Below, in pieces: positions 1 to 16,606 of a stretch of 23,053 nt of DNA. The stretch is from positions 1 to 23,053 of the forward strand of contig JAFGBW010000180.1 in the NCBI GenBank assembly GCA_016932965.1, read 5' to 3'. A program made the translations under genes and the position numbers. The stretch is from Candidatus Auribacterota bacterium (GTDB lineage: Bacteria; Auribacterota; JAFGBW01). The stretch's first letter is position 1, and every line of letters starts with the position of its first letter. The notes below the pieces were generated by a model. It saw nothing but the letters and a program-made list of their open reading frames with translations, was not told where the DNA came from and made no database searches.

Positions 1-701
1 AACGCCCAGTAATCAAAAGCCTTCTCTTTCGGAGCATAATTACTGAGGGATTCCTGCTGTTTTTTCGCGTCTTTTTCATACAGGGAAATACATTTATTGG
101 CATAAATGACCGTATTCTGGATATTATCGCTTGTGAGCGACTCCCAGGCTTTTCGGGTCAGTGTCTCGGAAGTGTAATCTTCGAAATCGATGTTTGTCCC
201 AAGCGTCATGATCATGTCACGGCAAGCTTCAGCCGGGCTCCAGAACCATCCCTTGGGATCCCAGCACTGGGAATAGGAATATTCGTCAATCACCAGCTGG
301 CAGATTTTTTTTGCCATGTCGTTTTTTCCCTGCTCTTTTAATGCTTTTGCCTTGATGAAATAGGCGGTCCCTACGTCATTTAAAGCCCAGTAGGTATTGG
401 CTACGGTTGCAGGCGGCATGGCGGTTAATTCCGATTGCTGCTTGAGGGCATGTTTCGTGTAAAGACCAATGCATCGTTCCGTGTAAGCTTCAACACCGGC
501 CCAATCTTTCACCTCCAGCGCAGCCCATGCTTTTGTGCAAAGGGTTACGGATTTTTGATCGCCAAAATCATATTCTGTCCCGGAGGAAGAAGGACCCGCT
601 TCGGTCTCTGCCGGACTGTCAGCCGCACCTGCATGAAACATGAAACAACCCACTGTTAACATGAACACGATAAACCGCACTTTGAGATATAAACCAGACA
701 T
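1..701 (-). CDS. Exported SQCWDP-repeat protein, paralogue A (3' end beyond window)
   Basis: This minus-strand reading frame stays open from ATG at 701 to the window edge (233 codons plus two bases), so the C-terminus is missing. AAAGGGG, seven bases before the ATG, is a good ribosome binding site. The N-terminus has one Lys and one Arg and a hydrophobic core ending FHAGAA, so it is probably a Sec signal peptide. The mature part carries a module beginning DFGDQKSVTL and running through KAWAALE, YTERCIGLY, YWALNDVGTAYF to YSQCWDPKGWFW. A second copy starts at IDFEDYTSETLTRKAW and is cut off near FDYWA. The helical pattern resembles tetratricopeptide repeats. The same two-module design occurs in the gene at 3000-3854, so the two are paralogues in opposite orientation. 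I do not recognise a named family and assign no function; a periplasmic or surface helical-repeat binding role is inference. Confidence 0.85.
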   Translation of the reverse strand, partial: MSGLYLKVRFIVFMLTVGCFMFHAGAADSPAETEAGPSSSGTEYDFGDQKSVTLCTKAWAALEVKDWAGVEAYTERCIGLYTKHALKQQSELTAMPPATVANTYWALNDVGTAYFIKAKALKEQGKNDMAKKICQLVIDEYSYSQCWDPKGWFWSPAEACRDMIMTLGTNIDFEDYTSETLTRKAWESLTSDNIQNTVIYANKCISLYEKDAKKQQESLSNYAPKEKAFDYWA

Positions 702-807
702 TTGTTTACCCCTTTCTGTATTGACCGGTTACTTGGAAAACAATTTTTGAGAAAAATTTTTTATATTTATAAAGAAAAATGTCAACTTATTTTATTTTCC
801 CGGGATA

Positions 808-1512
808 TCATTCATAGAGCTTTTGTAAAATTTCAAGATAATCATCAAAGAAAAAGGTAACGGACGTTCCAAAAAGCGATAAAATCATGATGCTGTTGGG
901 AGTGGCATCCATGACTTCCGCTTCGGCGAGACGAAGCGCCATTTTACTGTTCACGATATTGATATGGGAATAAAAATCTTTCAATCCGCTGAAATTAAAC
1001 TCACCTGTCCCCTCTCTTTTATTCTTGAAAAATTGTTCCAGTAAATAAGAGGACATGATTCTCTGCATGGTGTAAAACGGAGTGGAAAAAGGCTCATGGA
1101 ATCGTGCCAGGGGCCTGAATCGGGAGAGAAAAGGGCAAGCAGAAGTAGCCATCCGCACACCGATTAAGGAATACAGAACGTCCTGGATCGGTTTCTCACC
1201 TGAGATTGTTTTATCAGGCATGCGTACCGTGCATTTGCAATTGGAAAACGAGGCCTTTTTTGAAAAGTATTCGATGATGTCCGTGATGGAGATAGCAGCA
1301 GGACAGTAAGGATATTCACTGCTGGAAAGGGGACATTGTTCGCATTGATGGAATTCCAGTTCTTCCCACTTATATCGTTTGCTGGAATAATGCCTGGGTT
1401 TTTTTTCAAGGATATCTTTTTCCACTTTGAAAGCAATGTTTTCTCCATCTTCAAATTCGAAATGATATTCCACTTTCAAGTTGTATGGATTTTCAACAAT
1501 TTCGTTACCCAT
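808..1512 (-). CDS. Conserved Cys-containing protein (DUF6901-like), hypothetical
   Basis: This is a soluble protein of about 234 residues with no signal peptide or membrane segment. It opens with a beta-rich stretch (NLKVEYHFEFEDG), followed by a Cys cluster, HQCEQCPL then PYCPAA (C-x2-C-x9-C). Later comes a block ATSACPFLSRFRPLARFHEPF and a helical C-terminus. The Cys cluster and the C-P-F...RFH block match my memory of a family listed as DUF6901, mostly seen in deltaproteobacteria and related groups; that name is recall, not a search result. The Cys set could bind a metal. I prefer ATG at 1512 because AGAGG lies eight bases upstream. The frame also allows ATG at 1533, seven codons earlier, but no ribosome binding site precedes it. 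It lies 106 bases upstream of paralogue A on the same strand, with no clear terminator between. Confidence 0.72.
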   Translation of the reverse strand: MGNEIVENPYNLKVEYHFEFEDGENIAFKVEKDILEKKPRHYSSKRYKWEELEFHQCEQCPLSSSEYPYCPAAISITDIIEYFSKKASFSNCKCTVRMPDKTISGEKPIQDVLYSLIGVRMATSACPFLSRFRPLARFHEPFSTPFYTMQRIMSSYLLEQFFKNKREGTGEFNFSGLKDFYSHINIVNSKMALRLAEAEVMDATPNSIMILSLFGTSVTFFFDDYLEILQKLYE

Positions 1513-1697
1513 CAGTCTGACCTCTGCTGGCATTAGTTCGACACAAACGTTAACAGAAAATAACCGTTTCCTCGAGCCGTCTGCTTCGGATTGATGAAAT
1601 TAAAAGGAGTTGCCCTCATTTTTCGTTAAGCGAAACGGCCATATTTTGCATAAAAATAAAAGAAAATTCAACTTCAATTTACCGGAAATGCCCGCCG

Positions 1698-2549
1698 TTA
1701 TTTCCTGATATGGTGCAAGAAACCTTTGGATAGCAGCTCCGAGGCCTTGTCATCGCGTCCTTTTTTGCTTTTGCAGCCCAGAATCACGGCGATGACCCGG
1801 AAATCATGCCGCTTGGCAGTGGCAATGATAGAATAGCCGGCTTTTTTATAATAACCTGTTTTCATTCCGTCGCAGCCGTCGAATTTCCATAAAAGATGAT
1901 TATGATTTCGCATCATGAAAGTGCCGTTTCTGAATCCGCGTTCCCTGACTGAACTGTACCGCAACGTGTCAGGATATTTCAGCAACTCGCGAGCCAGGAT
2001 GGATAAATCTCTTGCTGTGGTGACATCTGGCAATTGCCCCACACCCGGTGGCAGACCATGAATAGAATGGAATTGTGATGCATTCATGCCCAGAGCTTTG
2101 GCTTTCTGATTCATCCATTCCACAAAAGCACCTTTACTCCCCGCAATATATATGGCTATGGCTGTCACGGCATCATTGGCCGACTGAACCATCATGGCAT
2201 ACAACAGTTCATCCAGAGTAAAAACCTCATTTTCTTTCAGATAGACCTGGGATCCGCCGATTTTTGCCGCTTCAGCAGTGATGTTGATTTGATCTTCCCA
2301 TTTCAGAACCCCTTCTTTTATTTTCTCCAATATAATCAGAAGGCTCATCAGTTTTAACACGCTGGCAGGGTATCCCTTGGCGTCCGCATTTTCCTCAAAA
2401 AGCACTTCGCCTGTTGAGGCATTGATGACGATAGCGCCGATATAAGGCTCTTTGGATAGAGTTTCATTACTGGATTTTGTTTCCCCATATAGAGGGGTAA
2501 AAATGGATATAAAAAGCAAAATAATGATCCAAAAATAATTATTTTTCAT
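1698..2549 (-). CDS. D-alanyl-D-alanine carboxypeptidase (S11 PBP), exported
   Basis: This is a penicillin-binding-protein-type D,D-carboxypeptidase, which removes the terminal D-Ala from peptidoglycan pentapeptides in the periplasm. The N-terminus is a signal peptide (KNN then about 14 hydrophobic residues, cleavage near LYGET). All three active-site motifs are present: SVLK at 63-66 (catalytic Ser63 and Lys66), SAN at 123-125 and KTG at 230-232. The protein is 283 residues, much shorter than E. coli DacA (about 400). It ends just after the transpeptidase fold, so the C-terminal beta domain and amphipathic membrane anchor are absent. It may be free in the periplasm, like the short DacF/PBP7-type enzymes. 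AAAGGA precedes the ATG by a suitable distance. A perfect TATAAT lies upstream on the same strand, flanked by inverted repeats (see 2578-2638). Confidence 0.93.
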   Translation of the reverse strand: MKNNYFWIIILLFISIFTPLYGETKSSNETLSKEPYIGAIVINASTGEVLFEENADAKGYPASVLKLMSLLIILEKIKEGVLKWEDQINITAEAAKIGGSQVYLKENEVFTLDELLYAMMVQSANDAVTAIAIYIAGSKGAFVEWMNQKAKALGMNASQFHSIHGLPPGVGQLPDVTTARDLSILARELLKYPDTLRYSSVRERGFRNGTFMMRNHNHLLWKFDGCDGMKTGYYKKAGYSIIATAKRHDFRVIAVILGCKSKKGRDDKASELLSKGFLHHIRK

Positions 2550-2577
2550 GCATTCCTTTCAATTCAGGTTGGACAAA

Positions 2578-2638
2578 ATCTTCACGATTATATACCGGGA
2601 GAGTGAAGATCCGTAATGCAAGCCATAAGTGGATCTTC
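2578..2638 (-). promoter_or_regulatory. Putative dac promoter inside alternating inverted repeats
   Basis: On the minus strand a perfect TATAAT (2587-2592) sits about 38 bases before the carboxypeptidase ATG. It lies in the loop between ATCTTCAC (2578-2585) and GTGAAGAT (2603-2610), an 8-bp inverted repeat. A third block, GGATCTTC at 2631-2638, also pairs with GAAGATCC at 2605-2612. The middle block can therefore pair with either neighbour. No good -35 box lies 16-18 bases upstream. The arrangement suggests an operator around the -10 box or alternative stems. This is read from the sequence; the function is inference. Confidence 0.4.
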
Positions 2639-2706
2639 CGCTCAAAACGATGCTTCTCCCTTTTTATCGGTCCTTTCCCTGCTGAAAGCAAAGGGGTTTG
2701 CATCTG

Positions 2707-2754
2707 GCGAATACAATTCGCTATTTATTAACAATGAAAAACGTGAAATACACG
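2707..2754. promoter_or_regulatory. Two short inverted repeats, candidate activator sites
   Basis: GCGAAT-ACA-ATTCGC (2707-2721) is a perfect 6-bp-arm palindrome, and CGTG-N5-CACG follows at 2742-2754. They lie roughly 180-220 bases upstream of the start expected from the -24/-12 promoter at 2908-2923. That distance is acceptable for bacterial enhancer-binding protein sites. The two sequences are not alike, so at most one is likely to be the real site. The link to the promoter is inference. Confidence 0.25.
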
Positions 2755-2907
2755 AAAATTTATTCAACCTAGTAAAAAATAAACGGACAATGGATATTTT
2801 AGTAACAGTCTTTTATCAATATGGAAAACAATACTGCCGTTCCATTTAATTCATAATGCATTGCGATGGTTTAGGATATGGAATAAACTGAAATAAGGAA
2901 ACATGTT

Positions 2908-2923
2908 TGGCATTCACCATGCT
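2908..2923 (+). promoter_or_regulatory. Sigma-54 (-24/-12) promoter for the 3000 gene
   Basis: The sequence is TGGCAT, then TCACCA, then TGCT. GG (2909-2910) and GC (2921-2922) have exactly the spacing required by RNA polymerase with sigma-54. Against the consensus TGGCAYR-N4-TTGCW only the R position and the first T of TTGC differ. Transcription would start near 2934, leaving a leader of about 65 bases that ends in a strong ribosome binding site before ATG 3000. A sigma-54 activator gene lies at 7985-9838, so the required activator class is encoded nearby. Confidence 0.6.
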
Positions 2924-2999
2924 GTGATCAGACCGTCAATGAGGCATGACAGTGAAGCCCTATCAGAAGAAACATGAACGATAAAGAAGGAGGAATCAT

Positions 3000-3854
3000 A
3001 TGAAATCGACAATCTGCATGCTACTATGCGCCGTGATCCTGACCGGATTTCATCTAGAAGCCGCTGACGAGGGAATTGATTTCGGCGATATGAAGTCAGT
3101 GACGCTGACAACCAAAGCATGGAATGCTCTGGAAGAAAAAGACTGGAAAAGCGTCGAAATCTATACAGATAAATGTATCACCCTTTATTCTAAAGAGGCT
3201 TCTAAACAGCAGCAGACGCTTTCTGATTTTCCTGTATCTGATTCAGCTTTTACTTACTGGGCGTTGAATGATGTGGCGACTTGTCATTTTATTGCAGCCA
3301 AAGCCTTGAATGAACAGGGAAACCCAGATGAAACAAGGAAATCATGTGAAGAAGTGATTAACCAGTATTCATTTTCCCAGTGCTGGGACCCTTCTCAGAA
3401 GATTTTCTGGAAAGTAGCTGATGCCTGCAAAGACCTGATCACCAGCCTGGAAAGCGGAGTGGATTTCGGGGATTACACATCCGAGACCTTCACAAGAAAG
3501 GCCTGGGAGGCACTGGATGCAAACCAGATATCTCATGTCGTCATCTATACGGAAAAATGCATGTCGCTGTATGAAAACGAGGCAATAAAACAACAGGCGT
3601 CTCTTTCCTCCTATGCTCCCAAGGAACATGCTTTTGATTATTGGGCATTGAATGACGTGGGAACCTGCTATTTCATACTGGGAGAGGCCTATTTAAAGAA
3701 TCAGGAATGGGAAAAAGCAAAAAACTGTTATCAAAAATTGATTGATGAGTACGGATATTCCCAGTGCTGGGACCCTAAGGGATGGTTCTGGAAACCAGCC
3801 GTGGCAGCCAGAGGGAAGTTAAATAAAATAGCTGCAGAGCATCCGGATAATTAA
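3000..3854 (+). CDS. Exported SQCWDP-repeat protein, paralogue B
   Basis: The protein has 284 residues. AAGGAGG six to seven bases before the ATG is the best ribosome binding site in the window. The N-terminus (MKSTIC then a hydrophobic core, cleavage near LEAADE) is a signal peptide. The rest is two copies of a ~120-residue module: DFGDMKSVTL to SQCWDP...FW (about 26-145) and DFGDYTSETF to SQCWDPKGWFW (about 153-272). Shared landmarks are KAW, a Y-T-[DE]-K-C segment, KQQ, YWALNDV-T and the SQCWDP motif. The ALNDVGTCYFILGEAY...EWEKAKNCYQKLIDEY stretch is TPR-like. Both modules keep one Cys after Y-T-x-K and one in SQCWDP, so a disulfide is possible. It is a paralogue of the truncated gene at 1-701 and appears to be under sigma-54 control. 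The function is unknown. Confidence 0.9.
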   Translation: MKSTICMLLCAVILTGFHLEAADEGIDFGDMKSVTLTTKAWNALEEKDWKSVEIYTDKCITLYSKEASKQQQTLSDFPVSDSAFTYWALNDVATCHFIAAKALNEQGNPDETRKSCEEVINQYSFSQCWDPSQKIFWKVADACKDLITSLESGVDFGDYTSETFTRKAWEALDANQISHVVIYTEKCMSLYENEAIKQQASLSSYAPKEHAFDYWALNDVGTCYFILGEAYLKNQEWEKAKNCYQKLIDEYGYSQCWDPKGWFWKPAVAARGKLNKIAAEHPDN

Positions 3855-3855
3855 T

Positions 3856-4929
3856 CTAGGCCGCTTCTGCAACTGCATCCGGGATTTGACTTCTGACGTG
3901 TTTGCCAAGCACTGACTCCAGGTCCCGGATGAAATCATCATAAGAAGTATAATTTTCATACATGGCTTTTTGTCTTACTGCGAGAAGATCAGGGCAGGAT
4001 TCTAATTCTGTTGGTTGGATGATATATTCCAATGCTCCTGCCAGAGAATAAATTTCATCGGATAGCGCATAGAGTTTATCACGTCTCCATTGTTTTTTAT
4101 ATCTGGCAAGTTTTTTTGAATAAGCCACTTTTTTATCCAATGGCATCTTGATAAAACCAGTAAACCGGTCCGTTAATTTAATATAAAAATGAATGATATC
4201 TCTTGTGCGGGAACAGTAGAGCCTATTGCCTCCTGCTGCCAATACTCCAAAAAGGCTCCTATTACAAAATTCTGCTTCGTTTATAAATGAAAAATCAAAA
4301 TCAAATAAGCCTGCTTCTCCATCTGGAGTAATATAAATATTACTTGATGTAATATCCCAATGATAAAATCCGCAGGCTTCGTAAAGAGCTTTGAGTTTTT
4401 TTGCCAGGCTAAGAATAATTCTTACCGACTCAAAAATTCCCAATTTTGTATTTGCCGCGTGTTCGAAAAGAGTTTTGCCATCAAATTTTTTAAAAAGGAC
4501 GGCTTTCTTGCCATTAAACAAAACAAAATGCTCTGCCTTGTCAAACCCTGTGGATATTAATTCGCTATGATGAATATTTAAATAATTCAAAATCCTTGCC
4601 TGGGGAACAACATCCCCCTCTCCTTTTTTTCTCCACCATGCTATTCGTTGCCACCACTTTCGAGGTCTGTCTCTTTTCATAATATATCTAACACCACGAT
4701 ATTCTACTTCATCCAATATGACATCTGGATTAATATGAATTCCTTCTTTGATTATTTTTATTTCTTTCCCTTTTTCTTTTGACCATTCCGGTTCGTATCT
4801 CAAAAGTTCTTCATAAGATACGTGTTTTTCTGTGAATGATTGTGGGGCAAGAAATCCTATCATAGAGGTCTCGGCCTGTCCGGGAATAGGAACACATGAA
4901 ATAAATAGGATTAAAATAGTTATCATCAT
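3856..4929 (-). CDS. Protein-kinase-fold protein with N-terminal signal or lipoprotein-like segment
   Basis: The protein has 357 residues. A kinase-type core is visible: a possible beta-3 lysine at K85 (RYIMKRD), a hinge-like LFKKFDGKTL (145-154), a catalytic loop HWDITSSN with H190, D192 and N197, and a metal-binding motif DFD at 210-212 in place of DFG. HWD replaces HRD. This resembles the lipopolysaccharide-kinase/atypical bacterial kinase superfamily more than the Hanks kinase at 5313. The first ~22 residues are hydrophobic with no Lys or Arg, then PIPGQAE. Cys12 follows FIS, a poor lipobox. An in-frame TAG lies two codons upstream of the ATG, so the frame cannot extend further, and no ribosome binding site is seen at this ATG. 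If exported it would lack cytosolic ATP; an internal start or membrane anchoring is possible. Its stop is one base from that of the convergent gene at 3000-3854. Confidence 0.75.
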   Translation of the reverse strand: MMITILILFISCVPIPGQAETSMIGFLAPQSFTEKHVSYEELLRYEPEWSKEKGKEIKIIKEGIHINPDVILDEVEYRGVRYIMKRDRPRKWWQRIAWWRKKGEGDVVPQARILNYLNIHHSELISTGFDKAEHFVLFNGKKAVLFKKFDGKTLFEHAANTKLGIFESVRIILSLAKKLKALYEACGFYHWDITSSNIYITPDGEAGLFDFDFSFINEAEFCNRSLFGVLAAGGNRLYCSRTRDIIHFYIKLTDRFTGFIKMPLDKKVAYSKKLARYKKQWRRDKLYALSDEIYSLAGALEYIIQPTELESCPDLLAVRQKAMYENYTSYDDFIRDLESVLGKHVRSQIPDAVAEAA

Positions 4930-5312: not shown

Positions 5313-7754
5313 ATGGCTGAAGACAAAAACACCAGGACGCAGCAGGAAGACAACCCGTCAGAAATGGGTTGTTTTAACAAAAAAACAATCGGCCATTATC
5401 AGCTCATCCGGGAAATCAGCCGCAGCGGCATGGGGATTGTTTTCGAAGCCTGGCATCCGGAACTCAAAAGAAAAGCGGCTATCAAAATCCTTCCTCTGGG
5501 GCAATCGCCGTCCGCGCTGGAACGGTTTAAAAGAGAGGCTGCCATTCTTTCACGGATCCGGCACAGCCAGATTGCCCAGGTGTACGACTTTGGAAAGGAC
5601 GATAATTGTTTCTACCTCGTCATGCAGTATATCGAAGGCCGCACGCTGGAAGAAAAACTGGATAAAAAAGACTTTTCCATAGATGAAGGATTTCTTCTGA
5701 TCAGAAAAACTGCCGTTATTCTCCATGATCTTCATGAACAGGGAGTGATACACAGGGATATCAAACCCTCAAACATCATGATCACTTCTCACCATGAGGT
5801 CGTTCTGCTTGATTTTGGGATTTCGAAATGTCTGGATAACGATTCTTTTTTCCGGATCACCCAATCGTCCATCGGTACTCCTGCCTATATGCCGCCGGAA
5901 TTCATCGATTCCAAAGGGGATGTCTGTGACAGGAGGTCCGATATTTATTCTCTTGGCGTGACCTTGTATGAAATCGCAACGGGTGTTTTGCCTTTTGACG
6001 AACCCAATTACTATTCATTAGCGGAAAAAATCAGGAAAGCGGATTTTGAGACGCCCCGCAAAAAAAATCCTGATTTATCCAAAGCAAAAGAAAGCCTGAT
6101 TTTAAAAGCCATGTCCTATAAAAGACAAAACCGTTATGCTTCTGCTCATGAGATGGCTCAAGATCTGGACAGAGTATTGAATGAAAAACCGCTCAGGCTT
6201 TCCAGGGTCCCGATTCTTTTCCATTATTTTATTTCCAAGTCAAGAGTCCGCCATGCTTTCTATTTCTTTCTTCTGTTTTGTTTTCTGCTTGTTGGATTGA
6301 CCCTCAAGGGGCCGTTCAGGAAACAAGACATTTATCCTGAACACCAGTGGAAAACCGTCGCTCTGTTTGACCGGAACATTCCTCTAGACGTTAGGATCTT
6401 CAATAATCTGGACGGCGGGATCCAAGTCAAAGAAATCAGCGACTTCATTGAAGCCCATCCGGATAATAAGGGTTTTACCTGGAAGAGAGATTCGCCGGGA
6501 TACCTGGTATTTCCGGAAATGTTTGAGTCTGAAATCAGGATCTCTTTCGATACTCCCTGCCCCAAAACAGAAGAATTCTTCGGCGTATTCAGTAATTCAG
6601 AAAGCGACTCGCTTTCCGGATATCTGGTCAAAATTCAGAAAAAGAGCGTCAGTCTCTGTAAAATGTATTATGGAAACCCCATCAAGGAATGTCCGGTCGT
6701 GTTTAAAACGGACAAAAACCGGATCATATTAGAAAGAAAAGGTGCTGAGCTGATCCTTTATTTAAATTCAAAAGAGGCCATCCGTTTCATGGATTACGAT
6801 CCGATATTAGGTACCCGGTATGCGTTCGCCGGCCTTTTTTTCAATCAAAAAGGCAGAAATGTGTCGGGTATCCGGATAGAAAAACCAAAACATCCTCTGG
6901 TCCTATCTCCTCTGATTCTGGGGCAGAAGCTTTTTAATCTGGACCGTTTTCAGGAGGCAATACAGGAATATCAAAATATCATCAATGAGTACCCCGATCA
7001 TTCCATCTCAAGGATCGCCTATTTTAGAATGGGAATGACCTATATCAAGCTGGAAGAATATGACAAAGCCATTGAAGTATTGACCCCCCTTTCTCAGGAC
7101 AAATCCGACACTCAGCTGCTTCCTGAAATCGAGTATCATAGGGCGATCAGCCTTTTCCTTTCCGGTAAAACGGATGAAGCGAAAAACATTATTCTTTCAG
7201 CCATTCACGACTATCCGGAATCGGAAATCGCCCTGAATATTTTTCTTTTTATCTATGATTCCTTTTTTTCAGGAGTCCGGCGTCATCCTGAACCAGGCAG
7301 GAAAAATGATAAAGAAAAGTGGTTCGATTTTATATTGGAACATTTCCCCAACCAAAGGCCTCTTTTTACCACAGCAACAAGAAAGATGATCTCAGCTTTT
7401 ATTTCAGAGGGCAAGATGGAAAAGGCCCTGTTCTATCTCGACCGTCTTGAAGAATATTTTCCCAATCAAACCGCCACTTGTGCCTGGGGAAAAATCACGC
7501 AGGGAGAACTCTATCTATCAAAAACAGATTATCTGAAAGCGCAGCAGGCCTTTAACGTTGTCCTCAAACGTTACAAAGGATTGAAAGCCTATGAAGCCAT
7601 AGCCATCTTGAAGCTGGCTGGGATGTATCATCAAACCGGGAAACGGGACCAGGCGGAAATGCTATACAAGAAGATCCTTTTGGATTATAAAGATTTGAAA
7701 GAATTTGTCCTGAAAGCAGAGGAAGGGTTGAAAGCAATTGAGAATTCAGAATAA
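5313..7754 (+). CDS. Membrane Ser/Thr protein kinase with external sandwich-like domain and TPRs
   Basis: The protein has 813 residues. A PknB-type kinase domain spans about 26-290: AIK with Lys58, Glu75, HRDIKPSN with Asp149 and Asn154, DFG at 167-169, GTPAYMPPE (PPE for APE) and Asp210. All catalytic residues are intact, so it should phosphorylate Ser/Thr. The glycine loop is unusual: SRSGMG replaces GxGGMG, losing the first two glycines. A single transmembrane helix at about 315-331 puts the kinase in the cytosol. Residues ~345-525 are beta-rich (GYLVKIQ, RIILERKGAELILYLN, YAFAGLFF) and resemble a concanavalin/LamG-type sandwich. TPR-like repeats run from ~535 to the end (FQEAIQEYQNIINEYPDH, YDKAIEVL). 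The ATG has no evident ribosome binding site. The next gene encodes an FHA-domain activator, a natural partner for a threonine kinase. The last codons overlap a short repeat also found at 14599. Confidence 0.92.
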   Translation: MAEDKNTRTQQEDNPSEMGCFNKKTIGHYQLIREISRSGMGIVFEAWHPELKRKAAIKILPLGQSPSALERFKREAAILSRIRHSQIAQVYDFGKDDNCFYLVMQYIEGRTLEEKLDKKDFSIDEGFLLIRKTAVILHDLHEQGVIHRDIKPSNIMITSHHEVVLLDFGISKCLDNDSFFRITQSSIGTPAYMPPEFIDSKGDVCDRRSDIYSLGVTLYEIATGVLPFDEPNYYSLAEKIRKADFETPRKKNPDLSKAKESLILKAMSYKRQNRYASAHEMAQDLDRVLNEKPLRLSRVPILFHYFISKSRVRHAFYFFLLFCFLLVGLTLKGPFRKQDIYPEHQWKTVALFDRNIPLDVRIFNNLDGGIQVKEISDFIEAHPDNKGFTWKRDSPGYLVFPEMFESEIRISFDTPCPKTEEFFGVFSNSESDSLSGYLVKIQKKSVSLCKMYYGNPIKECPVVFKTDKNRIILERKGAELILYLNSKEAIRFMDYDPILGTRYAFAGLFFNQKGRNVSGIRIEKPKHPLVLSPLILGQKLFNLDRFQEAIQEYQNIINEYPDHSISRIAYFRMGMTYIKLEEYDKAIEVLTPLSQDKSDTQLLPEIEYHRAISLFLSGKTDEAKNIILSAIHDYPESEIALNIFLFIYDSFFSGVRRHPEPGRKNDKEKWFDFILEHFPNQRPLFTTATRKMISAFISEGKMEKALFYLDRLEEYFPNQTATCAWGKITQGELYLSKTDYLKAQQAFNVVLKRYKGLKAYEAIAILKLAGMYHQTGKRDQAEMLYKKILLDYKDLKEFVLKAEEGLKAIENSE

Positions 7755-7984: not shown

Positions 7985-9838
7985 ATGTATCTCCATGTTT
8001 TTTTTAAAAATGAATATTACCAAACCATAAAAATCGGGGAAAAGGATCTTCCTCTTACGATCGGCCGTTCCGAAGAAAACAGCCTTTCTCTGCCTTTTGA
8101 CGACATGATTTCCAGACGGCACGCCAGGGTAATCCGTCAGGAAAAGGAAACACAAATTGAGGATTGCGGAAGTAAAAACGGAATTCATATAGACGGAAAA
8201 AAAATACACAAACAATCTCTCCCTTATGAAAAAAAAATAGGGATAGGCAGTTCCTTTCTTGTTTTCTCTTCCGAACCTTACAAGGAAATAAAAAAAACAC
8301 TTCATTTTGACAGTAAAATCATTGAAAAGACAGCCAAACTGGGCAAGGAACTGGCAGGAGAAAAAATACTGTCTTTTTTGTACACGTTATCAGACCGAAT
8401 CACCTCCTGTGAAACAGAAGATGAATTATGGAAGGCGGTATTTGCTGAATTAAAGGTGTTATTTCGTCCTGACAGGATGATTTACTTCGAAACCGATACG
8501 GCACGAAAAAAAGCCGTGATCCGAAAACGGGCAGACCTTTCTTTGACCTCCTCGAGGCAGGGATTCAGCCGGAGTGTGACCCAGGAGATCATTGCCTCCG
8601 GAAAGGCGGTGTATATTCGGAACGTCATCGAAGAGTGTCAAGATAAGACAAAAACCATCTCAAGGATGGGAATCAGCTCGCTCATGGCTGTTCCTCTTTT
8701 TCATCAAAAAGAAATCAAAGGTATTCTTCAACTTGAGCTTTTTCAGCTTTCCCATTGCTTTGCTGAACAGGAATTCTTCGCATTATGCATTCTTTCACGC
8801 ATGCTTTCCGGACTGCTTAAAGATATCAAAACCATAGAAAGAATCCGGACGCAAAATGAATGTGCAGTGGAAAATACAGTCAGGCAACACCCCATAATAG
8901 GAAAAGATATCAAAACCAGAGAATGCCTGGAATGGGTCAAAAAGGCAGCACCCACTCACACAACTGTTTTGATCACAGGTGAAAGCGGAACAGGTAAAGA
9001 ATGTGTAGCCAGGATGATTCATGCTTTGAGTCCGAGAAAAGACAAGCCGTTGATCATCATCAATTGCGCTTCTATTCCTGAACAGATCATGGAGAGTGAA
9101 TTGTTCGGACATGAAAAAGGCTCGTTCACCGGCGCTATAGCTAAAAGAATGGGAAAACTTCAGGCTGCAGACATGGGAACCCTTTTTTTAGATGAAATAG
9201 GAGAGATGCCTTTCACCTTACAGGCAAAGCTGTTGCGCTTTCTTGAAGAAGGAGAGATCCATCCTATAGGAAGCAATGAATGCCGTCTGGCAGACGTCCG
9301 GATTATCGCTGCAACCAATAAAAACCTATCAAAGGCTATAGCTGAAAAGTCCTTTCGCGAGGATTTATTTTACCGGATTTCTGTTTTTCAAATCAATTGC
9401 CCGCCTTTACGGGAGAGAAAGGGAGATATCATACCCATAGCGCTTTATTATTTAAAACAGTTCTCCTTTCTTCTTGGAAAAGAATTTAATGATTTTTCTG
9501 AAGAAGCCCGGCGTCTCTTACTGTCTCATTCCTGGCCGGGAAACATCCGGGAACTGAAAAATGTTATCGAACGGGCATGCATCATTGGGGAAGGTGACAT
9601 CCTGGAAGCGGCATTTTTTTCTGATCATCTGAAAGGGGATTTTTTTTCACCTGCCCTCAATCCGCTTCTGAAGAAACACGATGAAATCCAAGCCCATTCC
9701 TCCCTGGAACAACGAGAACAAGACTACATTCTTCGTATACTGGAACAGACGAATCAGAACAAAACCAGGGCAGCCCAGCTGCTGGGAATAACGCGGAAAA
9801 CACTGTATTCGAAACTGAAACGCTGGAATTGTGCTTGA
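7985..9838 (+). CDS. Sigma-54-dependent transcriptional activator, FHA-GAF-AAA+-Fis
   Basis: The protein has 617 residues. An N-terminal FHA domain (about 20-95) keeps the phosphothreonine-binding residues: GRS with Arg28, SRRH with Ser43 and His46, and GSKN with Asn65. A GAF-like sensor follows (about 125-280; ILSFLYTLSDRI to MAVPLFHQKEIKGILQLE). The AAA+ sigma-54 interaction domain (about 302-535) has Walker A GESGTGKE (332-339), the sigma-54 contact loop GSFTGA (379-384, usual form GAFTGA), Walker B GTLFLDEIGE (398-407) and the HSWPGNIREL motif. A Fis-type helix-turn-helix ends the protein (TRAAQLLGITRKTLYSKLKRW). It should remodel sigma-54 RNA polymerase using ATP. The FHA input suggests activation by binding a phosphothreonine protein, most simply the kinase encoded upstream. 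One candidate target promoter is at 2908-2923. The start ATG has only a weak ribosome binding site. Confidence 0.95.
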   Translation: MYLHVFFKNEYYQTIKIGEKDLPLTIGRSEENSLSLPFDDMISRRHARVIRQEKETQIEDCGSKNGIHIDGKKIHKQSLPYEKKIGIGSSFLVFSSEPYKEIKKTLHFDSKIIEKTAKLGKELAGEKILSFLYTLSDRITSCETEDELWKAVFAELKVLFRPDRMIYFETDTARKKAVIRKRADLSLTSSRQGFSRSVTQEIIASGKAVYIRNVIEECQDKTKTISRMGISSLMAVPLFHQKEIKGILQLELFQLSHCFAEQEFFALCILSRMLSGLLKDIKTIERIRTQNECAVENTVRQHPIIGKDIKTRECLEWVKKAAPTHTTVLITGESGTGKECVARMIHALSPRKDKPLIIINCASIPEQIMESELFGHEKGSFTGAIAKRMGKLQAADMGTLFLDEIGEMPFTLQAKLLRFLEEGEIHPIGSNECRLADVRIIAATNKNLSKAIAEKSFREDLFYRISVFQINCPPLRERKGDIIPIALYYLKQFSFLLGKEFNDFSEEARRLLLSHSWPGNIRELKNVIERACIIGEGDILEAAFFSDHLKGDFFSPALNPLLKKHDEIQAHSSLEQREQDYILRILEQTNQNKTRAAQLLGITRKTLYSKLKRWNCA

Positions 9839-10140: not shown

Positions 10141-11097
10141 ATGGACAGATCAGGATATAAAGGAAGAGAGCTCACCGTAGCTTCTTTGTATGAATCCATG
10201 AAACGCCAGCTGAGGCTTGAATTGCTGGCAGGGGCTGATGGACTCAATCGAAAAATCAAAGTGGCGGAAACCAATCGTCCCGGGCTTGCCTTGGCCGGTT
10301 ATGTGGAATATTTTGCCAACAGAAGGATTCAGGTTTTAGGCAAAGTCGAAATCAATTTCTTAAATTCCTTATCCAAACGCAAAGCCAGGGAGAGGCTGAA
10401 ACCTCTTTTCGTCCCAAACATCCCCTGTATCATTATTTCCAGGCGTTTTCCTCCGACTCAGGAATTGATCAATATGTCCAATGAATTCAAGGTGCCGCTT
10501 CTTCGTTCCCCTTTCGTGACAATGCGTATCATCAATAAAATCACGGTATTTTTAGATAATTGGTTTGCTCCGTTCACCCATGTTCATGGTTCTCTCCTGG
10601 AGGTTTCCGGAGTAGGAGTTCTCATCACCGGAAAAAGCGGAATCGGAAAATCAGAAAGTTCGCTTTCATTGATCAGCCGCGGGCACAGATTGATCGCTGA
10701 CGATATTGTCCGTATTCACGTGGAGGACGGCATCACGCTGGTCGGCTCCTCCTCTGAAATCACCTCACATCACATGGAACTTCGCGGATTAGGGATCATC
10801 AATGTTGAAAATTTATTTGGCGTGGGCTGCATACGCGATCGAAAAAGGATTGATATCAATATTTATCTTGAAGAATGGGATCCAAACAGGGAATATGACC
10901 GTCTGGGGATGCATGAAAGCAAGACCACCATTTTAGGGATTGAAATACCCTACAATGTTATTCCTGTCCGCCCAGGAAGGGATATTGCCCTTTTAGTTGA
11001 AGCTGCAGCATTGAATCAGCGTTTAAAATGGATGGGAAGGAATCCGGCAAAAGAACTGAATGATAAAATCTTGAAAGCAATGAAAGGTAAAATCTGA
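10141..11097 (+). CDS. hprK: HPr kinase/phosphorylase
   Basis: The protein has 318 residues, the usual family length. It phosphorylates HPr on its regulatory serine using ATP or PPi and can reverse the reaction. The N-terminal domain has the family pattern (RLELLAGADGLNRKI, NRPGLALAGYVEYF, RIQVLGKVE). The catalytic domain has Walker A GKSGIGKS (164-171) and the HprK signature ELRGLGIINVENLFGV. His149, Lys170, Asp187, Asp188 and Glu213 are spaced exactly like His140, Lys161, Asp178, Asp179 and Glu204 of the Lactobacillus casei enzyme, so both activities should be intact. The ATG has a poor ribosome binding site, but the domain alignment supports a start close to it. The genes for its substrate HPr and for enzyme I follow directly. 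Confidence 0.96.
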   Translation: MDRSGYKGRELTVASLYESMKRQLRLELLAGADGLNRKIKVAETNRPGLALAGYVEYFANRRIQVLGKVEINFLNSLSKRKARERLKPLFVPNIPCIIISRRFPPTQELINMSNEFKVPLLRSPFVTMRIINKITVFLDNWFAPFTHVHGSLLEVSGVGVLITGKSGIGKSESSLSLISRGHRLIADDIVRIHVEDGITLVGSSSEITSHHMELRGLGIINVENLFGVGCIRDRKRIDINIYLEEWDPNREYDRLGMHESKTTILGIEIPYNVIPVRPGRDIALLVEAAALNQRLKWMGRNPAKELNDKILKAMKGKI

Positions 11098-11174
11098 TTG
11101 TTCTTCTCTTGAAGCTGTTTTCCTTTTTTGATACGAAAACGCATCCTTCATGCATGATGAATACATAAAAAATT

Positions 11175-11474
11175 ATGAGTACAGAAGATGCAACTAACAC
11201 CTTTGAAAGACGCGTGGCCATTTTAAATAAGCTAGGACTTCATGCACGGCCCGCGGCTATGCTTGTTAAAAATGCCAACAGGTTTAAATCTGACATTTTT
11301 ATCACAAAAGAAGACGCTAACGGAGAAACCGTGAATGGTAAAAGCATCATGGGAGTGATGATGCTGGCTGCCTCTATTGGGACTTCACTGACCATCAAAG
11401 CGGTGGGGCATGATTGTAAAGAAGCCGTAGAGACCCTGGAGGCCCTAATCAATGACAAATTTGGAGAAGAATAG
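11175..11474 (+). CDS. ptsH: Phosphocarrier protein HPr
   Basis: The protein has 99 residues, slightly longer than typical HPr (about 85-90) because of an N-terminal extension and a three-residue insertion. His23 in LGLHARPAAM is the site phosphorylated by enzyme I. Ser57 in NGKSIMGVMMLAA corresponds to the HprK-regulated Ser46 of B. subtilis HPr, in the Ser/Ile/Met context HprK recognises. With both sites present it can serve as phosphocarrier and as regulator. It lies 77 bases after hprK and four bases before ptsI, so co-transcription is likely. Upstream of the ATG is AT-rich (ACATAAAAAATT) with no clear ribosome binding site. Confidence 0.96.
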   Translation: MSTEDATNTFERRVAILNKLGLHARPAAMLVKNANRFKSDIFITKEDANGETVNGKSIMGVMMLAASIGTSLTIKAVGHDCKEAVETLEALINDKFGEE

Positions 11475-11477
11475 ACC

Positions 11478-13271
11478 TTGAGGAAAAAAGCGAAAAAATC
11501 CTCACAGCTTGACCAGATCATTTATTACGGCATCCCTGTTTCTGAAGGAGTTGTCATTGGCAATGTTTATAAGTTCGACTCCGGTATTTCAAAACCAATC
11601 CTTGAAAGAAACATCAGAAAATCCGAAATCGCATCTGAAGTTTTAAAATTCGAAAACGCCCTGATTCAAACCCGCAAGGAACTCCTTGAGATTCAGACGA
11701 AAATCGCTGAAGCCATGGGAAGCGATCATGCTGATATTTTCAACGCGCATTTGCTCGTTCTGGAAGACTCAACCATCATGGAGGAAGTCACCAAACGAAT
11801 TCAACACGAACTGAAAAATGCGGAATTCATCTTTTCGGATGTGATGAAACAGTTCACCAAAGTCTTCAGCGAAATGCAGGATGAATATTTAAGGGAACGT
11901 ATTTCGGATATCAAGGATGTCACGCGCAGAATCCTTCGAAATATCAAAGGGGAAAAAAAGCAGGATCTCACTCAAATTAAGGAAGAAGTGGTGGTCATAG
12001 CCTATGATTTATCTCCATCTGATACCGTTTTAATGCATAAAGAAAACGTTGTCGGATTCGCTACAGATATCGGCGGAAAGACTTCCCATACCGCTATCAT
12101 GGCCAGATCATTAGGCATACCAGCCGTAGTGGGACTCCATGATGTGTCCAGGAGAATTCCACTTGGTTCCACAGTAATCCTGGATGGGACCAAAGGGCTT
12201 TTGATTGTCAACCCCGTCTCTGATACGCTTAAAAAATATTCCGATACAAAATCTCTGATCGAAATTTATGAAGAAAATCTGAAATCATTAAAAAATATCG
12301 AAACCGTGACAAAAGATGGACGAAAAATCGAATTACACAGCAACATTGAAATGCCTGAAGATATACAGTCCCTTCTTTCTCACGGTGCATTAGGGGTTGG
12401 ATTGTATCGAACCGAATTTTGTTACATGAACCGGACGGATCTACCTTCTGAAGATGAATTATTTCATGTCTACAGCAAAGTCGTTCGAAAAATGAATCCC
12501 AAGCCCGTGGTCATCCGTACCATGGACATGGGGGGGGATAAATTCCTTTCGCACCTTAAACTGCCGGTTGAATTGAATCCTTTTATGGGCTGGCGTGCCA
12601 TTCGATTTTGCCTCGAACGGATCGATATTTTTAAGACACAGATGCGGGCCATATTAAGGGCATCCGCGTTTGGCAAAACCAAAATCATGTATCCCATGAT
12701 TTCTAATCTCAATGAAGTGATTCAGGCCAACAGTATTTTAAAAAAATGCATGAAAGAATTAAAAAATGAGCATTTGGACTATGATGAAAACATCGAAATT
12801 GGAATCATGATTGAGATCCCCAGCGCGGCGATTACTTCTCATTTTCTCGCCAATCATGTTCAGTTTTTCAGCATCGGAACCAATGACCTTATTCAGTACA
12901 CGTTGGCTGTAGACCGTATCAATGAACGGATCGCCTATCTCTATCAGCCATTTCACCCTGGAGTTCTTCGGCTCATTCAGATGGTCGTACAGGCAGCCAG
13001 TAAGAATAAAGTGGATGTCTCCGTATGCGGAGAAATGGCGGGAGATCCTGCAGGCGCCATCATTTTAGTAGGGATGGGGATCACCAAACTCAGTTTATCC
13101 TCCATGTTTATCCCGAAAATAAAAAGCATCCTACGCGCCATCACCTATGCTGAAGCTGAAGATTTGGTCAATAAAACCATGCACTGTTCCCAGGCCGTGG
13201 AAATAAAAGAACTGGTTGATCCGATCATTAAGCGCGTTGTCCCCAATTTTGTCAATGAAACTGTCCTTTAG
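11478..13271 (+). CDS. ptsI: PTS phosphoenolpyruvate-protein phosphotransferase (enzyme I)
   Basis: The protein has 597 residues against about 575 in E. coli, and transfers phosphate from phosphoenolpyruvate to His23 of HPr. Features in order: the HPr-binding helical domain (LKFENALIQTRKELLEIQ), active-site His204 in GGKTSHTAIMARSLGIPAVVGL's first part, GLYRTEF, the PEP-binding MYPMIS and IGIMIEIPSAAI, SIGTNDLIQYTLAVDR, and catalytic Cys517 in VSVCGEMAGDP. The His-Cys spacing of 313 equals that of E. coli (His189, Cys502). The chosen start is TTG at 11478: GGAGAA lies a suitable distance upstream inside the end of ptsH, and no ATG fits before the domain. The gap to ptsH is three bases, suggesting translational coupling. 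No EIIA, EIIB or EIIC gene is in the window. Confidence 0.96.
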   Translation: MRKKAKKSSQLDQIIYYGIPVSEGVVIGNVYKFDSGISKPILERNIRKSEIASEVLKFENALIQTRKELLEIQTKIAEAMGSDHADIFNAHLLVLEDSTIMEEVTKRIQHELKNAEFIFSDVMKQFTKVFSEMQDEYLRERISDIKDVTRRILRNIKGEKKQDLTQIKEEVVVIAYDLSPSDTVLMHKENVVGFATDIGGKTSHTAIMARSLGIPAVVGLHDVSRRIPLGSTVILDGTKGLLIVNPVSDTLKKYSDTKSLIEIYEENLKSLKNIETVTKDGRKIELHSNIEMPEDIQSLLSHGALGVGLYRTEFCYMNRTDLPSEDELFHVYSKVVRKMNPKPVVIRTMDMGGDKFLSHLKLPVELNPFMGWRAIRFCLERIDIFKTQMRAILRASAFGKTKIMYPMISNLNEVIQANSILKKCMKELKNEHLDYDENIEIGIMIEIPSAAITSHFLANHVQFFSIGTNDLIQYTLAVDRINERIAYLYQPFHPGVLRLIQMVVQAASKNKVDVSVCGEMAGDPAGAIILVGMGITKLSLSSMFIPKIKSILRAITYAEAEDLVNKTMHCSQAVEIKELVDPIIKRVVPNFVNETVL

Positions 13272-13287
13272 CAGGGAGGCAGCAGTC

Positions 13288-14589
13288 ATGTTTAGAAAAG
13301 GGAACCTTTTTTTTCTTTTTGTTTTGTTTTTCTGCCTATGCTTTATATATGCCGGATGCGGGAAAAAAAGGAGCGATTCCGATGCAGTCATAATCTGGCA
13401 CTGGATGACGGATCGTCACGATACGTTTTTAAAGCTGAGCAAGCAGTACAAAGCAGAAACAGGTAAAACCGTCATCTTTGAACTGTCCGCTCCTACCGAT
13501 GTCTATACCTCAAAAGTACGCGCGGCAGCTCAAACCAACACACTGCCGGATATCTTCAGCGTGCTAGGAGTGTCTCAGGATCTGTCGAATTTCATCCATG
13601 CCGGATTGATTCATTGCCTGACGCCTTACATGGAAGAAAACCATCATGAATGGGAGAGGTCTTTTTATCCGAACGCAATCGGAATGAACGCGTTTACGGA
13701 ACCCAATCAATGGAATGTTCCTGAAGGGATCTATGGTGTTCCCATAGATGTCACCAATATCCAGATGATATACAACAAGGATATTTTTAAAACAGCCGGT
13801 ATCGATAAAATTCCTGAAACATGGGAAGAATTCCTGAAAGCAGGCGACTTAGTCACTTCAAAAACGGATAAACAATTTTTTGTCGTGGGATTTGGCGAAA
13901 CCTGGCTGATCAACACCATGGTCAGGATTTTTGCCTATAATTTGATTGGAGAAAAGAAACTGATCCAGACCATCAAGGGAGAATGCCCCTATTCTTCCGC
14001 TGAATGGATAGACATTTTCAATAAATTCAGAGAAATGAGTGAAAAAAAACTGTTCGCGGCAGGTATTGTCACCATGATCAACAGAAATGCGGAACGTTTA
14101 TTTGCTACTGGAAGGGCAGCGGTCACCTACAATGGCTCATGGAGCGTCAATGTTTTCAGAGGAATGAATCCGGATTTGAACTATGGAACCATGTTTTTTC
14201 CAAAGATCAGCGATCATTACCCCTTGCTGATCCAGGGGGGAGCCGGATCATCCCTGATGGTGAGCGAACATTCTCTCCGAAAAAAAGAGGCTGTCGCCTT
14301 TTTAAAATGGATGACCTCCAAATCCAGCCAGATCTTTTTATCCACGGAAACCAACAATCTTCCTTCAAATAAAGAGGCTGTAGGGCAGATGCCGGCTATT
14401 CTCAATGAATATGCAAAAGACATGGACAAAACTTTTCATCCAGCGCTTTTACCAGTCGGCGAAGATCCCAATATCGAAGAAGCGACAGCAAGGGGGATTC
14501 AATCCATCATCATCGGAGAAACCACTCCTGAAGAACTGGCCGAAAAAATCACGCTTTTAAAAAAACAAACCCTGAACGAGAGTGAATAA
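13288..14589 (+). CDS. Sugar ABC transporter substrate-binding lipoprotein (family 1)
   Basis: The mature protein begins at a lipidated Cys: the precursor has MFRKGN, a hydrophobic core and lipobox YAGC (Cys24). GGGAGG seven bases before ATG 13288 fixes this start; an in-frame ATG 24 codons upstream inside ptsI has none of this and would spoil the signal peptide. The 434-residue protein shows the MalE/UgpB-type pattern: IIWHWMTDRHDTFLKLSKQY, VRAAAQTNTLPDIFSV, GVPIDVTNIQMIYNKDIFKTAGI, PETWEEFL, TGRAAVTYNGSWSV, and KKEAVAFLKWMTS. It binds a sugar or oligosaccharide outside the inner membrane and delivers it to the permeases at 14855-16606. It starts 16 bases after ptsI, so it is probably in the hprK-ptsH-ptsI transcript. 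The substrate cannot be read from the sequence. Confidence 0.93.
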   Translation: MFRKGNLFFLFVLFFCLCFIYAGCGKKRSDSDAVIIWHWMTDRHDTFLKLSKQYKAETGKTVIFELSAPTDVYTSKVRAAAQTNTLPDIFSVLGVSQDLSNFIHAGLIHCLTPYMEENHHEWERSFYPNAIGMNAFTEPNQWNVPEGIYGVPIDVTNIQMIYNKDIFKTAGIDKIPETWEEFLKAGDLVTSKTDKQFFVVGFGETWLINTMVRIFAYNLIGEKKLIQTIKGECPYSSAEWIDIFNKFREMSEKKLFAAGIVTMINRNAERLFATGRAAVTYNGSWSVNVFRGMNPDLNYGTMFFPKISDHYPLLIQGGAGSSLMVSEHSLRKKEAVAFLKWMTSKSSQIFLSTETNNLPSNKEAVGQMPAILNEYAKDMDKTFHPALLPVGEDPNIEEATARGIQSIIIGETTPEELAEKITLLKKQTLNESE

Positions 14590-14854: not shown

Positions 14855-15757
14855 ATGAACAGACACATGAATAAAACGAAAATATATTCCCTTTTGACCT
14901 CTTATTCTTTTATTGTCCCGGCTCTGATTTTATTTGCCATTTTCAATATCTACACTTTTTTTGATTTATTTCGTCTCAGTTTCATGAAATCCAACGGACT
15001 TGCCGGAAGCATCGAGACGTTCGTCGGACTTCAGAATTATATTGAAATTTTCAAGGACAAAGTCTGGTGGGAATCCGTCGGACGCGCAGCATATATTACT
15101 TTTCTTGCCCTGACTCTTCAAAATTTTGTCGCGCTCATTCTGGCCCTCTTCGTGGACAGGGGGATAAGAGGCGAAACCATCTATAAAGTTATTTTTTTTC
15201 TGCCTCCGGTTCTTTCCGGTATCGTCATCGGATTGATCTGGGAATGGATTTTTGATGGCAATTATGGACTCTTGAACCACTGGCTGACATTGTTTCATAT
15301 GGAAAAATTCTGCCGGGCATGGCTGGCTGATCCTAAAACCGCCCTCTATGCCATTGCTTTCATCCATATGTGGCGGGGTTTCGGCTGGGGATTCGTTATC
15401 TTTTTAGCAGGGCTGCAAAACATTGACAGGGAACTTTATGAAGCAGCGGATGTCGACGGAGCCACCTGGTGGCCCAAATTTGTTCATATCACCCTCCCGT
15501 TGATGGTTCCCGTGTTTGTCATTGTTTCCATCTTGACTATTTTAGGCACCATGCAGATCTATGATCTGATCGTTTCCACGACCAAGGGGGGGCCAGGTTA
15601 TCATACAGAAGTCCCTATCACGCGCATTATTTACAGCATGACCGGCTCTTTGAATTTCGGCTATGCCAGTTCACAAGCGATTGTGTTTGGAGTGATTCTC
15701 CTGATCGTTTCTATGACCCAGATTTTTGTTTCAAACCGGCTTAAAAAAAATGACTAG
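14855..15757 (+). CDS. Sugar ABC transporter permease, MalF/UgpA type
   Basis: The protein has 300 residues and about six transmembrane helices. The cytoplasmic EAA loop that docks to the ATPase is ELYEAADVDGATWWPKFVHI followed by TLPLM. Upstream segments typical of the family are YTFFDLFRLSF, FVGLQNYIEIF, VIFFLPPVLSGIVIGLIWEWIF and IHMWRGFGWGFVIFLAGLQNI. With the next gene it forms the heterodimeric channel for the substrate brought by the 13288 lipoprotein. The ATG at 14855 is preceded by TAGGGT; ATG at 14867 is an alternative. It is separated from the binding-protein gene by 265 bases. Confidence 0.93.
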   Translation: MNRHMNKTKIYSLLTSYSFIVPALILFAIFNIYTFFDLFRLSFMKSNGLAGSIETFVGLQNYIEIFKDKVWWESVGRAAYITFLALTLQNFVALILALFVDRGIRGETIYKVIFFLPPVLSGIVIGLIWEWIFDGNYGLLNHWLTLFHMEKFCRAWLADPKTALYAIAFIHMWRGFGWGFVIFLAGLQNIDRELYEAADVDGATWWPKFVHITLPLMVPVFVIVSILTILGTMQIYDLIVSTTKGGPGYHTEVPITRIIYSMTGSLNFGYASSQAIVFGVILLIVSMTQIFVSNRLKKND

Positions 15758-15766
15758 GAACCGTTC

Positions 15767-16606
15767 ATGTATAAAAACATAGAAGACTTGAGTTTATCCA
15801 AACTGGGCATACATGTTTTTCTCATCGGGGTATCAATCAGCTGCCTGTTGCCCCTGATATGGATGATCGCGTCTTCCCTGAAAACACAAGATGCTATTTT
15901 TACCAACATGAGTCTCTGGCCAGAGGTTTTTAAATTCAGCAATTACACTGAGGCCTGGAAAGGGGGAAGATTCGGGACCTATTTTCTCAATTCCCTTTTT
16001 TATACCGTAACAGTCATTTTTTTCATTGTTCTTTTTTCCTCGATGGCTGCCTTCGCCTTTTCCAGACTGGATTTTCCCGGAAAAAACATTTTATTTTACA
16101 TGTTCATCGGCGTGATGATGATCCCGATTCCCGGAGTGTTTGTTGCCATCTTTGTTATCTTGAATAAATTAAGTCTCATCAACACTCGTGTGGGCTACAT
16201 CTTGCCCCAAATCAATGCGGGGCTCCCCTTTTCCATCTATCTTCTGAAAACTTTTTTTGATAAAATCCCCAAAGAAATGGAAGACTCTGCCAAAATTGAC
16301 GGATGCTCCAAATGGCAGATATACTGGCATGTGGCATTGCCTCTAGCCAAATCAGCCATCGCCGTTATTGTTATCTTCAATGCGCTTTCCACCTGGAATG
16401 AATTTCTGCTCGCCAATCTTATTTTTTCCGATGCAGATCTGATGCCTCTCCAGGTCGGATTATTGAAATTCCAAGGGGAACGCGTAACCGAATATCCTCA
16501 GCTGATGGCGGGAATGACCATGACAACGGCCTTCATCATCGTGACTTATCTTTTCATGCAGCGTTTCATCATCAAAGGAATCACTGCCGGCGCTGTAAAA
16601 GGGTGA
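15767..16606 (+). CDS. Sugar ABC transporter permease, MalG type
   Basis: The protein has 279 residues, six predicted transmembrane helices, and the EAA loop KEMEDSAKIDGCSKWQIYWH followed by VALPL. Other family marks are SLLPLIWMIASSLKT-like wording near the N-terminus (SCLLPLIWMIASSLKT), NYTEAWKGGRFGTYFLNS, AFAFSRLDFPG and NALSTWNEFLLA. It starts nine bases after the previous stop, with TAGGAAC as ribosome binding site, so the two permeases are co-translated. No ATP-binding subunit follows; a shared MsmK/UgpC-type ATPase elsewhere is likely. Its last 26 bases overlap the convergent end of the broken MFS gene. Confidence 0.93.
   Translation: MYKNIEDLSLSKLGIHVFLIGVSISCLLPLIWMIASSLKTQDAIFTNMSLWPEVFKFSNYTEAWKGGRFGTYFLNSLFYTVTVIFFIVLFSSMAAFAFSRLDFPGKNILFYMFIGVMMIPIPGVFVAIFVILNKLSLINTRVGYILPQINAGLPFSIYLLKTFFDKIPKEMEDSAKIDGCSKWQIYWHVALPLAKSAIAVIVIFNALSTWNEFLLANLIFSDADLMPLQVGLLKFQGERVTEYPQLMAGMTMTTAFIIVTYLFMQRFIIKGITAGAVKG

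Follow-up and report, generated by a model that had tools for sequence, protein, structure and literature searches.

Among the closest described counterparts of the proteins analysed here are the SusD-like and surface glycan-binding proteins of Bacteroidota β-1,3-glucan loci, which are TPR-based, exported and encoded together with GH158 and other laminarinases (PMC11351036, PMC7157763), and SusD itself, also built on TPRs, binds laminarin through three Trp residues (PMC11351036). GH158 is an established endo-β-1,3-glucanase family (PMC7157763), and β-1,3-gluco-oligosaccharides are the substrate of GH149 (PMC6771811). A second point of comparison is provided by the carbohydrate-binding modules (CBMs) of CAZy, usually β-sandwiches, which occur as discrete modules on unrelated catalytic barrels of one substrate class and also free-standing or in tandem. 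In water, laminarin-type β-1,3-glucan represents a major store of carbon; to our knowledge, its capture without SusCD is poorly understood in phyla with few cultured members, such as Omnitrophota, Auribacterota, Planctomycetota and Verrucomicrobiota.

The window, i.e. the whole stretch of 23,053 nucleotides that was analysed, is an entire contig (G000:C259) of a Candidatus Auribacterota genome of 3.14 Mb in 300 contigs. It encodes two related proteins, A and B, which we consider, by a slight preference, to be exported non-enzymatic accessory proteins of β-1,3-glucan (laminarin-type) utilisation whose tandem modules would hold glucan chains.

The paired genes and their modules

The genes, modules and motifs of the pair are as follows.

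3-701, minus strand: protein A, cut off by the end of the contig; a signal peptide is followed by one whole module and half of the next
198-575, minus strand: module 1 of protein A (profile match, E = 2.8e-51)
3-191, minus strand: module 2 of protein A, represented by its first half and lacking the motif because of the cut (profile search)
240-272, minus strand: SQCWDPKGWFW motif in module 1 of A, aromatic β-hairpin predicted by homology with B
3000-3854, plus strand: protein B, signal peptide and two modules, complete, 284 aa
3075-3455, plus strand: module 1 of protein B (profile match, E = 1.9e-49)
3459-3836, plus strand: module 2 of protein B (profile match, E = 1.3e-53)
3375-3410, plus strand: SQCWDPSQKIFW motif of protein B module 1, modelled as two hairpin strands (108-111 and 116-119 of the mature protein)
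3759-3791, plus strand: SQCWDPKGWFW motif of protein B module 2

A sequence-only reading of this DNA had described a paralogous pair of exported proteins in opposite orientation, and this description holds: the two share 61% identity over 192 residues, and both start with an apparent signal peptide, read by eye (...HLEA/AD and ...AGA/AD). Two tandem modules had been assigned to each protein, four in all, which is correct for B (∼127 residues each); because the window is the whole contig, protein A runs off its end, and only ∼1.5 modules and one motif are visible. The window thus holds three complete motifs, one of them in A, instead of the four that had been counted. Neither the remaining 3′ part of A nor further modules were found elsewhere in the genome in a whole-genome profile search. 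The motif had also been called almost invariant (SQCWDP...FW); since the motif of B module 1 reads SQCWDPSQKIFW, this applies only to its flanks, and the motif Cys is present in 67% of aligned modules, being replaced by A, T, S or V in the others.

The close similarity of the DNA around the motif is real, with three exact copies of CCCAGTGCTGGGA (259-271 on the minus strand, 3376-3388 and 3760-3772) against 0.02 expected. These copies lie inside the coding motif, so that protein conservation and codon choice suffice to explain them, and a DNA-level regulatory element was rejected. In a quick tree, module 1 of A and module 1 of B were sisters (SH-aLRT 98) on long branches, and the pair appears to be an old lineage-specific duplication. 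That copy number matters had been argued from the local duplication; this argument is weakened by the long branches of A and B and by the widely varying copy numbers of relatives.

Fold and conservation of the module

AlphaFold2 gave a very confident model of protein B (pLDDT 96.6, pTM 0.90, 69-row alignment), in which each module consists of four helices, two of them long, followed by the motif β-hairpin, with strands QCWD and WFWK, and a cap helix. One module superposes on the solved TPRs of IpgC, CTPR2, YbgF and Hop TPR2A over 84-97 residues at 1.6-2.6 Å, and it is therefore a TPR variant. Protein B also matches the TPR superfamily profiles TPR_6 (42.4 bits, cut-off 26.3; 7e-11) and TPR_2 (27.8 bits, cut-off 27), and protein A is below the Pfam TPR cut-offs. 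Model, Pfam and PDB fold matches thus agree with the earlier description of an exported TPR-like module, and the structure prediction that had been proposed as a check returned a TPR-type repeat with an aromatic hairpin.

A search for a more specific identity led to generic TPR models only. In the Pfam search (matches to E = 1) neither a Sel1 model nor a SusD-like or SusD-RagB domain appeared, and SusD was absent from the top structural matches listed; solved homologues found by sequence were limited to weak generic or designed TPR matches. The likeness to YbgF/CpoB is considerable in fold (91 residues on the YbgF TPR, 2xev, at 1.7 Å, Z 11.7, besides the TPR_6 match), but the module scores 19.8 bits against a cut-off of 90.1 for TIGR02795 of NCBIfam, and it has extended helices and the WDPkGWFW hairpin in addition. 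SEL1 or any other named TPR family was thus rejected as its identity, and no well-characterised family of this kind, which the sequence-only reading had named as a refutation, was matched. Its view of a family without assigned function stands, as our searches gave neither a family with a known function nor a solved relative nor a publication. Compared with SusD, the module lacks the SusD Pfam domain and is a small single tandem unit with a β-hairpin, no lipobox was seen, and the loci have an ABC transporter.

The most conserved columns (module numbering) are W113, W18, W106, C36, W64, N67, C72, W111 and Q104, and D68 is also high. Conserved Cys and Trp residues had been taken to indicate a defined binding surface or a disulfide. 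A Trp-rich defined surface element is likely, although the conserved Trp could be structural instead of ligand-binding. Among 197 modules, the three Cys columns are occupied in 83%, 64% and 67%, with no obligate pair and no covariation as a pair; 46 modules have a single Cys and four have none (50/197 in total). As the cysteines vary, a disulfide is unlikely to be general, and it was rejected as a general feature.

Distribution and β-1,3-glucan enzymes

The module profile (127 columns), used in an iterated search over the fetched loci, gave 296 matches in 144 ORFs, with one module (proteins of ∼165 aa) to eight modules (1117 aa) per protein. Sequence searches, a check of the kind that the earlier reading had proposed, found relatives across many phyla: Auribacterota, Omnitrophota, Planctomycetota, Verrucomicrobiota, Lentisphaerota, Gammaproteobacteria, Myxococcota and Chloroflexota. 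Two Auribacterota relatives (G001 and G002) have 28 and 16 matches, and the module is rare in other genomes sampled; Cerasicoccus is a cultured carrier, with a single-module protein. Spread by phage or plasmid was rejected, with no phage match and one plasmid match, in Chloroflexota. The eight-module protein (L053:8238-11588, Auribacterota) is encoded between genes of CBM-like proteins (cluster c4, see below) and LacI. In three genomes (G026, G019 and G004; loci L005, L006 and L007) the module is C-terminal in a 660-aa protein of unknown fold, for which no partner domain and no Pfam or PDB relative was found.

Neighbour genes were clustered over 80 loci and identified by Pfam and PDB sequence search, leaving out clusters c16 and c17, which are shadow ORFs of GC-rich contigs. 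A GH158 endo-β-1,3-glucanase (9oro 1e-90, 6pal 3e-63) is present in 31 of the 80 loci, mostly within 150 bp and on the same strand, and as a rule it directly adjoins the module gene; a GH149 β-1,3-oligoglucan phosphorylase (6hq6 1e-277) and a GH94 laminaribiose phosphorylase (6ggy 1e-238) are also found, enzymes of the same families and substrate class as in described β-1,3-glucan loci (PMC7157763, PMC6771811). Other neighbours are LacI, a sugar MFS protein and an ABC sugar transporter, the last being the type of transporter that recurs in the loci inspected, and one Myxococcota locus contains a GH30 enzyme. Cluster c4, found in 22 loci, is a 226-aa lipoprotein with a CBM11/CBM30-like fold (Foldseek 2e-6; Z 13.7, 145 residues). 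In Candidatus Chlorohelix (Chloroflexota), a two-module protein is encoded at a distance of two genes from a GH17 enzyme in which two CBM domains of the c4 type are present (7.6e-96). Altogether, at least one part of this β-1,3-glucan machinery is present in 63/80 loci, and the remaining loci include several short contigs. Among the papers searched, we found no mention of the SQCWDP module in GH158/GH149/GH94 loci, and no paper with the motif or joining TPR with GH149 or GH158.

The c4-type domain deserves separate mention: it has no Pfam match, it is a free lipoprotein in Omnitrophota and Auribacterota (L043, L045, L053 and others), two copies lie inside the Chloroflexota GH17 enzyme (L149:13744-17088), and it is probably an unlisted β-glucan-binding CBM.

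The module is also fused to catalytic domains. In 21 Omnitrophota loci a TIM barrel matching GH158 structures (7e-15) follows on its C-terminal side, usually with a two-module gene adjoining the fusion gene, and in four Verrucomicrobiota loci the module precedes a Glyco_hydro_cc (GH128-type) barrel (8e-49). A discrete non-catalytic module is thus fused to GH158-like and Glyco_hydro_cc barrels, which is one mark of CBMs as a functional class.

Co-occurrence was counted in 288 Verrucomicrobiota genomes, which are not phylogenetically independent. GH158 is present in 16/16 genomes with the module and in 26/272 without it (Fisher 2e-15, uncorrected for relatedness), and in 14 of the 16 carriers the two are less than 2 kb apart; in the 15th (G276) a GH149 gene lies 433 bp from the module, and in the 16th GH158 is on a contig edge. 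As a control, a GH10 xylanase-type enzyme was found in 13/16 and 129/272 genomes, a much weaker enrichment than that of GH158. GH10 is nevertheless enriched in carriers, and part of the co-occurrence therefore reflects a polysaccharide-degrader lifestyle.

Sequence and computation provide export signals (by eye), a predicted fold, a conserved motif, coupling in the genomes and β-1,3-glucanase fusions, and we place the module in the β-1,3-glucan degradation pathway with high confidence. Its company, beside or fused, consistently consists of β-1,3-glucan enzymes in many phyla, and a hitherto unrecognised role in gripping or handling this polysaccharide is therefore probable, which suggests a TPR protein that serves the utilisation of glycans. 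Direct binding of glucan by the module, via a Trp/Asn/Gln/Asp face, is the best inference at about even confidence. In the model we propose, each module would be a TPR-type four-helix unit completed by a cap helix and the aromatic WDPkGWFW hairpin, and this hairpin, together with an invariant polar face on the long helices (N67, D68, Q48, Q104, W18 and W64), would most likely form the putative glucan site, where we infer the ligand to be glucan itself, or its oligosaccharides, and the hairpin its binding site. Tandem modules, located in the periplasm or on the outer surface, may hold chains of β-1,3-glucan for endo-glucanases of the GH158 type and for a dedicated ABC-type sugar transporter, and the module would be appended, like CBMs, to unrelated catalytic domains of one substrate class.

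Whether this amounts to a new TPR-scaffold CBM family with an aromatic hairpin, specific for β-1,3-glucan and found free, in tandem (up to eight) or fused to GH158/GH128 in at least seven phyla, is a question on which we put the odds at just short of even. The likeness to CAZy CBMs lies in the discrete module on unrelated barrels of one substrate class and its free and tandem forms; the differences are that the module is an α-helical TPR, that its family is unlisted in the libraries searched and that its carbohydrate binding is putative. If it does bind glucan, a new CBM-type family would be added; moreover, the motif is short and easily searched, making it a genome marker for β-1,3-glucan loci and the protein directly testable.

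Protein binding by TPRs is commoner than binding of other ligands. A periplasmic TPR scaffold that tethers or chaperones β-1,3-glucanases, or presents products to the transporter, and so binds peptide instead of sugar, would agree with this classical role of the fold, with protein-binding TPRs being the best PDB fold neighbours, and with the two-module gene often lying beside a GH that already bears a module, as if modules might pair. We regard such an adaptor as rather unlikely, because the module is attached like a CBM to unrelated GH folds and families (GH158-like, GH128-like), its invariant Trp, Asn, Asp and Gln residues have the make-up of a sugar site, and up to eight tandem copies suit avidity for a polymer. 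Least probable is that the module is an ordinary TPR serving as structural filler, its hairpin being lineage-specific, and that it is coupled to glucan genes through a horizontally transferred operon and has no direct role on glucan. The purely generic Pfam matches would fit this explanation, but one hitch-hiking event could hardly account for the hyper-conservation of the hairpin in at least seven phyla, or for fusions and sets of neighbours that are independent of one another (GH158, GH128, GH17, GH149 and GH94).

Surroundings of the pair in its own genome

Within the window, the genes nearest to the pair are not glucanases, which speaks against glucan handling by A and B. The genome has a GH158 homologue (contig C289, 474 aa) with 58% identity to a G002 copy that lies near a module gene, a homologue of laminaribiose phosphorylase (C251, 911 aa) and an unfused form of the Omnitrophota module-fused enzyme (49% identity over 614 columns). 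An ABC transporter beside GH158 on C289 was rejected, as the translations there are murG-, FtsA- and FtsZ-like cell-division genes (by eye). Transport and regulatory features within the window are as follows.

2907-2923, plus strand: sigma-54-like -24/-12 element TTGGCATTCACCATGCT, 93 bp upstream of B, p ∼0.006 against shuffles, suggestive
5313-7754, plus strand: Ser/Thr kinase with TPR (Pfam), orthologue beside module genes in two related genomes
7985-9838, plus strand: FHA-GAF-sigma54 activator, orthologue beside module genes in two related genomes, GH158 next once
13216-14589, plus strand: ABC transporter sugar-binding protein, 45% identical to module-linked ones
14855-15757, plus strand: ABC sugar permease with 58-59% identity to permeases linked to the module
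15767-16606, plus strand: ABC sugar permease with 58-61% identity to permeases linked to the module

The kinase and activator genes are adjacent in the window, and a corresponding pair flanks the module genes of loci L034 and L037, with GH158 behind the activator in L037. As their orthologues adjoin module genes in both relatives, the two could plausibly exert local control, and kinase/FHA control of the glucan genes is possible. The earlier suggestion to look for a kinase and PBP around homologues was thus rewarded for the kinase in relatives, but not as a role across the family: beyond this order the constant neighbours are β-1,3-glucan enzymes and a sugar transporter, and the kinase/activator pair is confined to the order. 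An element similar to TTGGCATTCACCATGCT lies upstream of one G002 module gene (L011) and is absent from most others, and sigma-54 control of all module genes was rejected, with a good site in only two of ∼20.

These genes bear on a further explanation, that the module is the periplasmic input of a sensor which detects glucan or its products and signals via the kinase and the FHA-sigma54 activator. It draws on their flanking a module gene in three related genomes and on the sigma-54-like site upstream of B. We judge it improbable, as elsewhere LacI or nothing adjoins the module, the fusions are to catalytic domains, and no fusion to a transmembrane signalling domain was seen.

Several other genes of the window were recorded. 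A DUF6901 protein (808-1533, minus strand; Pfam 2e-51) is encoded between A and B, and directly downstream of B lies a predicted exported protein (3856-4929, minus strand) with a weak kinase-like match (Pkinase 0.004, MAD6 2e-5). HPr kinase, HPr and PTS enzyme I are consecutive at 10141-13271, with no EII seen in the window, and are possibly a regulatory PTS. A 1063-aa protein (18517-21708) combines a response-regulator receiver domain with the long HEAT repeats that follow it.
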